Source of the DNA: Candidatus Woesearchaeota archaeon
GTDB lineage: Archaea > Nanobdellota > Nanobdellia > Woesearchaeales > GW2011-AR15
DNA: 34,216 nucleotides
NCBI GenBank assembly: GCA_014729915.1
Contig: WJJD01000054.1
Coordinates: 1-34,216 of the forward strand
Direction of reading: 5' to 3'
Under the pieces are notes generated by a model, which saw nothing but the letters and a program-made list of their open reading frames with translations, ran no database searches and had not been told where the DNA came from. The position numbers and the translations under genes are program-made. Positions 25,698 through 32,363 of the stretch are shown piece after piece. The stretch's first letter is position 1; every line of letters begins with the position of its first letter.

Positions 25698-27410
25698 ATG
25701 ACCCAAATAAAAATTCTAAACGATTCACTGATTAACAAGATTGCAGCAGGTGAAGTCATAGAGAGACCAAAAAATGTTGTAAAAGAACTTATTGAAAATT
25801 CTATAGATGCAAAAGCATCAAAAATAACTGTAGAGGTTAAGAAAGGGGGAAAATCTTTTATAAGCGTAACAGACAATGGAGAAGGAATGAATAAAAAAGA
25901 TGCAAAAAAAGCATGCCTCAGGCACTCAACAAGCAAAATATCAAATCTTGATGATCTGTTTAATATATCTTCATTAGGGTTTAGGGGAGAAGCACTTGCA
26001 AGCATTGTTTCTGTTTCAAAATTAACATTAACAACTAGAACCGAAAATGAATTAGAGGGAATAGAACTGAAATATGAATCAGGCAATTTAAAAAATGTTG
26101 AAAAAAAGGGATGCCCCACTGGAACTGCTATTATTGTAAAAGATTTATTTTATAATACTCCTGCAAGAAAAAAATACTTAAAATCAGAAAGAAGAGAATT
26201 CAACCACATTATTGATATAATACAGAGGTATTCTTTAATAAATCCCAAAATTCATTTTAAGCTGATTCATAATAACAAAGAAATATTAAATTCCCCACAG
26301 ACATCAGATCAATTAACAAATATAAGCTATATTTACGGAAGAAAAACAGCAAAAAAACTTCTATTAATAGATTATAAATCTTCTTTATTAACAATAAAAG
26401 GATATATATCAAAACCTGAAATAGCCAGATGGGGAAAAAAAGATCAGTCTATTTACATTAATAAGAGGTATATAAAAAATAAAACTGTTTCAGATGCAAT
26501 AAATAATGCTTACAACACCTTAATGTTTCTTGACAAGAACCCGGTAGTTGTTTTAAATATCTCTCTTGACCCGGAGATTGTGGATGTCAATGTCCATCCT
26601 ACAAAATCTGAAGTCAGATTTGAAAAAGAAAAAGAAATCTATGACCATGTATTTTCTGCTGTAAGAAAGACTCTGCTTGAAAATGATCTTATACCTGATC
26701 CGGAACTTAAAAAAGATTCATTCACTCAATATACATTCAAAAACCACGAAAAAAATATTGATGTAAAAGAGTCTAGTCCTGGTTATTCAATTGAAAAGTC
26801 CAGGCAGACATTATTTGGAAAAGAAGATAACAAAATTGCACTGAATAAACTGCCTGAAATGAGAATCCTTGGTGTTTTGAATAAGACCTATATTGTCGCT
26901 GAAACCAGAAACGAACTTATTTTAATTGATCAGCACGCTGCAGCTGAAAGAATTTTGTATGAAAAATACCTGAAACAATTCCAAAGAAAAAAAATAATAA
27001 AACAGGTTTTACTTGAGCCGGTGCTGATTGAAACAGATAAAAAAATGCACGAATCTATTTCTCAGAATCTTTCTGTTTTTACTGACATGGGTTTTGATAT
27101 TGAAGCATTTGGAAGAAACGAATTTATTGTAAGATCTGTTCCTGAAATTTTTAAAAAAGCTGCTGATAATGAATTTATTATTGACCTAATAACTTCCGGA
27201 AAGAAATCTTTTAAAGAAAAAGAGCAAAATAAGATAATGAAAATGGCCTGCAGAGCAGCAGTTAAAGCTGGTGAGGAAATTACAATTAAGGAAATTAAAA
27301 ATTTTCTTAGTGATCTTGACAATTCTAAGATTTCTTATACCTGTCCTCATGGCAGACCGATATTGATAAAATTATCTTTTAGAGAGATTGAAAAGATGTT
27401 TAAAAGATAA
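25698..27410 (+). CDS. mutL: DNA mismatch repair protein MutL
   Basis: IKILNDSLINKIAAGEVIERPKNVVKELIENSIDA, DNGEGM, RHSTSKI, GFRGEALASI, DVNVHPTKSEVRF; C-terminal DQHAAAERILYE endonuclease motif and CPHGRP. Confidence 0.98.
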   Translation: MTQIKILNDSLINKIAAGEVIERPKNVVKELIENSIDAKASKITVEVKKGGKSFISVTDNGEGMNKKDAKKACLRHSTSKISNLDDLFNISSLGFRGEALASIVSVSKLTLTTRTENELEGIELKYESGNLKNVEKKGCPTGTAIIVKDLFYNTPARKKYLKSERREFNHIIDIIQRYSLINPKIHFKLIHNNKEILNSPQTSDQLTNISYIYGRKTAKKLLLIDYKSSLLTIKGYISKPEIARWGKKDQSIYINKRYIKNKTVSDAINNAYNTLMFLDKNPVVVLNISLDPEIVDVNVHPTKSEVRFEKEKEIYDHVFSAVRKTLLENDLIPDPELKKDSFTQYTFKNHEKNIDVKESSPGYSIEKSRQTLFGKEDNKIALNKLPEMRILGVLNKTYIVAETRNELILIDQHAAAERILYEKYLKQFQRKKIIKQVLLEPVLIETDKKMHESISQNLSVFTDMGFDIEAFGRNEFIVRSVPEIFKKAADNEFIIDLITSGKKSFKEKEQNKIMKMACRAAVKAGEEITIKEIKNFLSDLDNSKISYTCPHGRPILIKLSFREIEKMFKR

Positions 27411-27505
27411 ATAACGGATTTTGCAAATTTAAAATCCATCATATATTTTCAAGTACAATAAGTTTTTTAAATTCTTATTATAATGTTTGTTAATGGTGAT
27501 TTTAG

Positions 27506-28261
27506 ATTCTATATAATACATTTCAGCACATCCCGGGAATCGGGAAAAAAACCGAAGAAAAAATCTGGAAAAAACAAATTCTTACATGGGATTTATTTTT
27601 ATCAGAACATAAAAAAATTAACATTTCAGAATCAAAAATAAAAAAAATATGTAAATATGTTGAGCTTTCTAAAATAGAGATTGAAAAAAAAAACCATCTT
27701 TTTTTCTTACCCCTGCTTTCAAGATCAATGCACTGGAGAGCATATCCTGAATTTGCTGACAATTGCTGTTTTTTAGATATTGAGACAACAGGTCTTTCAA
27801 GAGATTATCATGATATAACAACAATTGCAGTTTATGACGGAAAAGAGTCAAAGGTGTTTATACAGGGAAAAAATCTTGATGAATTTAGATCTGAAATAAA
27901 AAAATACTCACTCATTGTTACTTATAACGGAATATGTTTTGATATTCCTTTTATTGAACAAAAACTCCCTGATATAGGATTTGATCATCTTCATGTTGAT
28001 TTAAGATTTGCTCTGAAAAAAATAGGTTATTCAGGGGGATTAAAATCAATTGAGAAGCAGTTGGGGATTGTAAGGGAAGGCGACATATGTGATGTTGACG
28101 GATATGAAGCAGTAAGATTATGGAAAAGATATAAAAGAGGAGACAAAAGGGCCCTTGATAAACTTATGAAATACAACATAGAGGATGTAGTAAACCTAAA
28201 GACTCTAATGGATATCACCTATAAAAATTTAAGGGAAAAATCCTTTTCTTGTATCCAATGA
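27506..28261 (+). CDS. YprB-like RNase H-fold nuclease with N-terminal helix-hairpin-helix; true start uncertain
   Basis: ORF track starts at 27728, but the same frame is open upstream: ILYNTFQHIPGIGKKTEEKIWKKQILTWDLFLSEHKK...HWRAYPEFADNCCFLDIETTGLSRDYHDITTIAVYDG...SLIVTYNGICFDIPFIE...LRFALKKIGYSGGLKSIEKQLGI. No ATG in the extended part. Confidence 0.85.
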   Translation: MLYNTFQHIPGIGKKTEEKIWKKQILTWDLFLSEHKKINISESKIKKICKYVELSKIEIEKKNHLFFLPLLSRSMHWRAYPEFADNCCFLDIETTGLSRDYHDITTIAVYDGKESKVFIQGKNLDEFRSEIKKYSLIVTYNGICFDIPFIEQKLPDIGFDHLHVDLRFALKKIGYSGGLKSIEKQLGIVREGDICDVDGYEAVRLWKRYKRGDKRALDKLMKYNIEDVVNLKTLMDITYKNLREKSFSCIQ

Positions 28262-28440
28262 AAAAAATAGTGTCAAGCGAAAACCGACCACCACTGGTCA
28301 AAGACCAGTTGTATGTTCGCCCTTCGGGCGAAGGTCGGTTTTCAGTAACTTCAGAACTTGTAACAATTCCGGGAATGTCTCATGATTGGATAAACAGGGA
28401 TAAATATCTGAAAAAATATATTTTGCCTGAGCTTAGATAG
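28258..28440 (+). CDS. Small ORF (60 aa) containing an in-frame structured palindromic element
   Basis: ATG 28258 overlaps the preceding TGA; MKKIVSSENRPPLVKDQLYVRPSGEGRFSVTSELVTIPGMSHDWINRDKYLKKYILPELR. The C-terminal half looks protein-like; the N-terminal half is encoded by the palindromic element. Confidence 0.5.
   Translation: MKKIVSSENRPPLVKDQLYVRPSGEGRFSVTSELVTIPGMSHDWINRDKYLKKYILPELR
28270..28350. repeat. Palindromic three-way-junction element (copy 1)
   Basis: Outer stem 28279-28289/28333-28343 (GAAAACCGACC/GGTCGGTTTTC, 11 bp); hairpin ACTGGTC-aaa-GACCAGT 28293-28309; hairpin TTCGCCC-ttc-GGGCGAA 28316-28332. Flanks GTGTCAAGCGAAAACCGACCA and CAGTAACT recur at 32300-32330. Confidence 0.8.
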
Positions 28441-32293: not shown

Positions 32294-32333
32294 TGGTCGG
32301 TGTCAAGCGAAAACCGACCAGTCAGTAACTGGT
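32294..32333. repeat. Shortened copy of the palindromic element (copy 2)
   Basis: TGGTCGGT(32294-32301)/ACCGACCA(32313-32320) hairpin and mutually exclusive ACCAGT-cagta-ACTGGT (32317-32333); shares 21 nt (32300-32320) plus CAGTAACT with copy 1. Confidence 0.7.
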
Positions 32334-32363
32334 GGAAAATGAACTTTTGTTCTGTTGCTACTA

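Follow-up and report, generated by a model that had tools for sequence, protein, structure and literature searches.

Introduction

The closest described counterparts of the repeat reported here are the palindrome-associated transposable elements (PATEs) of Haloquadratum walsbyi, which lack terminal inverted repeats, bear similar palindromes close to either terminus, generate no target duplication, have a short target oligonucleotide at one end and no coding capacity, and also exist as terminal-only copies described as having lost the core between the palindromes (PMC3119063). The element that we describe from DPANN archaea has each of these features, core deletions included. It departs from the PATEs (PMC3119063) in that each of its palindromes lies inside a larger covarying domain, in its spread across many genera and several orders of DPANN, and in being without a proven IS605 relative that has the same two ends. 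When read as its reverse complement, it presents a short target, a left-end hairpin and a right-end hairpin, which is the layout of IS200/IS605 elements (PMC5934647, PMC2806898); unlike IS608 and ISDra2 (PMC5934647, PMC2806898), it has no tnpA inside. It likewise resembles the REP/BIME/REPIN sequences that go with RAYT proteins in consisting of palindromes that lie between genes, are constrained at the DNA level and may be processed by Y1 enzymes, but differs from them in lacking the GTAG/GTGG foot and in being a two-ended element of 130-150 bp with an external target (PMC6006769). With the Rickettsia palindromic elements it has in common a palindromic structure and dispersal, whereas its copies are not in frame in genes and show ends and a target of the single-strand type.

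A literature search for DPANN or Woesearchaeota repeats of this type returned nothing relevant, and we regard this widespread DPANN family of PATE-like, non-autonomous elements as new. That the palindrome family is a mobile DNA element is close to certain. As to how it moves, we consider it probable that it is a non-autonomous, protein-less DPANN element that travels as single-stranded DNA by the IS200/IS605 (HUH Y1 TnpA) mechanism, with the enzyme acting in trans. If this is right, a transposase-less single-strand element would be a main repeat of these reduced and little cultivated genomes and a likely source of contig breaks in DPANN assemblies, and would naturally report the direction of replication where replication is unknown.

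Architecture of the element

The window, by which we mean the whole stretch of 34,216 nucleotides of Woesearchaeota DNA that was analysed, contains at 28270-28350 a palindrome whose arms and loops are all exactly as given in a preliminary description made from the sequence. On the forward strand, an 11-bp P1 stem, formed by complete (100%) pairing of GAAAACCGACC (28279-28289) with GGTCGGTTTTC (28333-28343), encloses two 7-bp hairpins, namely P2, ACTGGTC-AAA-GACCAGT (28293-28309; arms 28293-28299 and 28303-28309, AAA loop), and P3, TTCGCCC-TTC-GGGCGAA (28316-28332; arms 28316-28322 and 28326-28332, TTC loop). Folded as single-stranded RNA, positions 28250-28370 reach -39.4 kcal/mol (z = -5.2), with none of 200 shuffles as low. 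The interval originally singled out makes up the left half of a larger element, whose start is GTCAA at position 28272.

Complete copies of this dispersed element are about 130-150 bp long and are built, in order, of GTCAA, the P1 stem enclosing P2 and P3 (a left domain in the form of a three-way junction), a linker, a P4 stem enclosing P5, and GAACT, with TTTA directly beyond the boundary. The inner hairpins of the two domains are near-identical: the P2 type recurs in the right domain, and P2 and P5 have in common CCACYRGTS...SACYRGTGG, so that palindromes near both termini are alike. Terminal inverted repeats are absent, the ends reading GTCAA on one side and GACAT, CATAT or GAACT on the other; nor is there a GTAG/GTGG tetranucleotide at the hairpin foot, the conserved flanks being GACC and CATGCTCG. 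In the genome from which the window comes, the linker often contains one to three copies of a 49-bp tandem unit. Such units (TTCAGAACTTGCTTCTGAAGTCAAGGAATGACCTGTGGGAATGACAGAG) were read in loci L004, L005, L007, L011 and L012, and a related unit is present in the same-genus genome G153 (L076). A different embellishment, a second hairpin insert in the left domain (AATTGGAAATGTTCACATTTCCAATT...TTTTTGACATT), is seen in copies L196, L202, L203, L205 and L206 of genome G112.

The window copy itself (28272-28360, forward strand) is a 3'-truncated left half, matched by the covariance model over 28272-28362 with 73.3 bits (E 3.7e-15) and 90-93% identical to other copies in its own genome. What remains is the GTCAA left end, the left domain, the AGTAAC linker and 11 nt from the start of the internal repeat unit. 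The right domain has been lost, and the truncated copy is presumably dead. Two further remnants lie on the forward strand of the window. One, at 32302-32345, was recognised by DNA matches of both ends and by reading the sequence as a core-deleted copy of the terminal-only kind that occurs in this family, its left end being joined to its right end via the two similar hairpins; the other, at 716-744, is a 5'-truncated fragment comprising the right end only (GTCAAAGACTGGTAAAAAATGAAGTTTTA), identified by end search and sequence reading.

Distribution among DPANN archaea

Dispersed copies were observed directly. The window's own genome (2.04 Mb in 186 contigs) holds about 20-25 copies or fragments as judged by the covariance model and end searches, with long matches to the window sequence at 86-93% identity. 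A covariance-model search for other copies, as the preliminary description had advised, found them in this genome; at E 1e-5 or better, the model matched 72 of the 377 genomes of the phylum, 65 of them in the order and seven in other orders of the class. Many further copies exist, and the non-autonomous mobile element, which that description had offered as an alternative, turns out to be the right one. Whole-element BLAST gave matches in 82 of the order's 292 genomes, in many cases through one hairpin only. The repeat reaches about 60 strong matches in the 1.0 Mb of genome G152, and 30 in G112.

An exact motif of 29 positions, scanned against 85,462 species genomes, matched nine records: four named as Woesearchaeota, two as Micrarchaeota, one as Nanoarchaeota and two labelled only 'archaeon'. 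All these hits are in genomes labelled as DPANN archaea or as an unnamed archaeon, and the records with copies bear the names of different DPANN phyla. Searches of viral contigs (IMG/VR) with three motif patterns and of plasmids by BLAST found none. Another dispersed repeat, MITE-like and some 100 bp long with ends TTATACTAAA...TTTAGTATA, was encountered at L056:1-101 (G246) and in many places in G256, where it has more than 20 matches.

Ends, target sites and a proposed mechanism

In 30 clean copies from G152, chosen for recognisable ends, GTCAA marks a sharp left boundary, and A or T precedes it in all 30; the right boundary is CATAT followed, in all 30, by T-N-T-A, with N being T in 26 copies, A in three and G in one. 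A scan of the flanks of these 30 copies for target duplication gave no signal. That the base following the target is A/T finds a parallel in a preference at +1 which has been reported for IS608 and ISDra2 (PMC5934647, PMC2806898). Empty alleles at orthologous sites, which the preliminary description had proposed to look for, were found twice for the family, G053 having the empty and G112 the filled site: CTTGGTTT^TTTTAAA and CTGATTT^TTACAAAGG. The target, TTTTA or TTACA, is already there in the empty alleles; thus, TTNTA at one end of the element is a pre-existing target, and insertion does not duplicate it. The reading of a third empty site (L199/L300) is ambiguous, the flanks of L056 and L117 have diverged in relatives so as not to be usable base by base, and stretches of G053 and G112 picked by coordinates were not syntenic.

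From this layout we infer a course of events, its HUH chemistry, circle, active strand and identity of the enzyme included, that may be put as follows. The active strand would be the reverse complement of the window strand and would read TANAA, then, across the boundary, the left-end hairpin domain, the right-end hairpin domain and TTGAC up to the second boundary. A transposase dimer might bind the two near-identical inner hairpins, and the element would be excised as a single-stranded DNA circle when this strand is exposed at the replication fork. Insertion would then take place, without duplicating the target, on the 3' side of a pentanucleotide resembling TANAA, the Y1 enzyme probably being supplied in trans by another element. 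TTGAC is also the right-end sequence of ISDra2. A point against this scheme is that in about a quarter of the young G152 copies fetched (L147-L186) a few bases are missing from one end, as far as the nearest stem, and precise cleavage does not account for this.

Strand orientation and the polarity of transposition

Single-strand transposition on the lagging-strand template is expected to leave a bias in orientation relative to strand skew. Such a bias is directly seen in G152, a genome with strong strand skew, where at 34 of 40 sampled loci the GTCAA...TNTA strand is the one rich in G at third codon positions (p = 8e-6), these loci not being fully independent since some of them adjoin on one contig; a sign-flip test gave p < 1/5000. 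In G266, eight of nine copies are on one strand of a 1.47-Mb contig with one-signed skew almost throughout, which is suggestive of orientation to strand skew in a second genome. In G112 there is no usable replichore signal in GC skew and the flank test was null; the window's own genome has no usable skew, and an orientation bias was not seen there. The G266 contig (C2, L374-L393) is a curiosity in itself: its third-codon-position GC skew holds one sign over nearly all 1.47 Mb, as if it were replicated by one fork, and ARAGORN predicts a single tRNA across the 400 kb sampled.

The G-rich strand is usually the lagging-strand template. If this holds here, the skew bias favours the strand opposite to the one deduced from the target side, and two readings in which the polarity differs have to be weighed. 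The better of these, which we hold to be unlikely though worth keeping in view, is a DPANN-specific single-strand superfamily with its own unknown enzyme and a polarity other than that of IS200/IS605 (target 3' on the replication-exposed strand), exchanged between DPANN phyla. Less likely again is some other single-strand system, HUH Y2/IS91-like or driven by an unknown enzyme, with its target 3' of the element on the active strand: it would accord with the placement of the GTCAA...TTNTA strand on the G-rich strand and with the failure to find Y1 loci framed by element ends, but a hairpin repeated at both termini, as here, typically marks Y1 elements.

The search for a Y1 partner

The probable reading, movement by a Y1 enzyme in trans, directs attention to the Y1 transposases, which are found in 102 of the 292 genomes of the order. 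They are present in 44 of the 82 element-bearing genomes versus 58 of the 210 others (p = 4e-5), an association confounded by overall mobile-DNA load and assembly quality. About 50 Y1 loci were searched with the model and none is framed by both element ends. Genomes G053 and G222 have copies, and a Y1 gene was not detected in them, as would be expected only if the partner has been lost or lies in missing sequence. A lead comes from an IS200 on contig C86 of the window's own genome, which has just after tnpA, that is, at its right end, a stem GAAAATCGGC...GCCGATTTTC around CCACCA...TGGTGG; in L085 a bona fide element shares these arms. In G062, a related IS200 retains the stem around a different inner hairpin, and the left end of the IS200 with the similar right end is unlike that of the element. 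This may point to the partner and is a lead rather than proof.

Other candidates were set aside. A supposed autonomous version on contig C167 of the window's own genome consists of a left fragment separated by 4 kb from a right match that is unrelated, with no transposase-like gene between them; a long gap after the left domain in L062 contains degenerate ORFs in which no transposase was recognised by eye; and a TnpA adjoining a copy in G238 has its own, different ends. At L245 (contig C4 of G152), two diverged genes for Y1 transposase-like proteins, 169 and 160 aa long, stand in tandem.

Y1 genes in many genomes, together with the diverged tandem pair in G152, would suit a REP/BIME-like palindrome mobilised by a domesticated RAYT (TnpA-REP), a resident Y1 protein, as would a repeat that is palindromic, intergenic, dispersed and paired in DNA. 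We nevertheless give this explanation as small a chance as the other single-strand system, because the outer ends of the element are defined on both sides, its two domains come in a fixed order and a target motif lies beyond one end, the GTAG/GTGG foot is absent, and copies do not flank any of the examined Y1 genes in the manner of a REPtron.

Pairing maintained in DNA

Covariation at the DNA level was likewise observed directly. Among 57 distinct sequences, 35 of the 39 pairs have changes on both sides and 94.1% of cells are paired; the covariation score is 0.421, whereas shuffles give 0.110 +/- 0.006 and slid controls do not exceed 0.071. Because the structure guided the alignment, the absolute values lean upward. 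In an RNA helix, G-U is tolerated far more readily than A-C. Here, of 1887 cells, 32 are G-T and 44 A-C; these double changes, with G-T not commoner than A-C, indicate a constraint on folded DNA and not on RNA.

The same data bear on the structured RNA that had been raised as another alternative, in the form of an RNA gene or a cis-regulatory RNA spread by duplication. The strong, stable fold and the deep covariation are what such an RNA would display, but the G-T cells are not in excess, the orientation of neighbouring genes around the G152 and G112 copies is unbiased, Rfam scans at two thresholds gave no match to any family, and the element is present or absent at orthologous sites; we accord this explanation very little probability.

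The open frame through the window copy

An open frame of 63 aa (MKKIVSSENRPP...LPELR; 28258-28440, forward strand) spans the window copy: the 27 codons of 28270-28350 are free of stops, and the frame is read on from an ATG at 28258, overlapping (ATGA) the stop of the upstream gene, to 28440. The preliminary description had taken this for an in-frame insertion into a small gene. The 63-aa ORF is without a Pfam match, tblastn was blank in the 14 loci that surround homologues of the upstream gene in the nine family relatives, and the copies are intergenic; the frame is probably not a gene. ORFs of at least 90 aa do not span 56 of the 60 copies examined in G152 and G112, and most full-length copies in the window's own genome are stopped in all six frames. 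Since copies elsewhere are thus unspanned or closed, and the 63-aa ORF has no match, the in-frame state of the window copy is best taken as accidental. For all the 27 open codons after an ATGA-coupled start, an insert living in frame in genes like the Rickettsia palindromic elements, the analogy drawn at the outset, is hardly credible against the unspanned and closed copies and an ORF with no detected homologues. The adjoining part of the window, 25698-28261, carries a MutL gene and then a gene for an exonuclease-like protein of the RNase_H_2 superfamily, the start of which is likely to be a non-ATG codon or to lie upstream.
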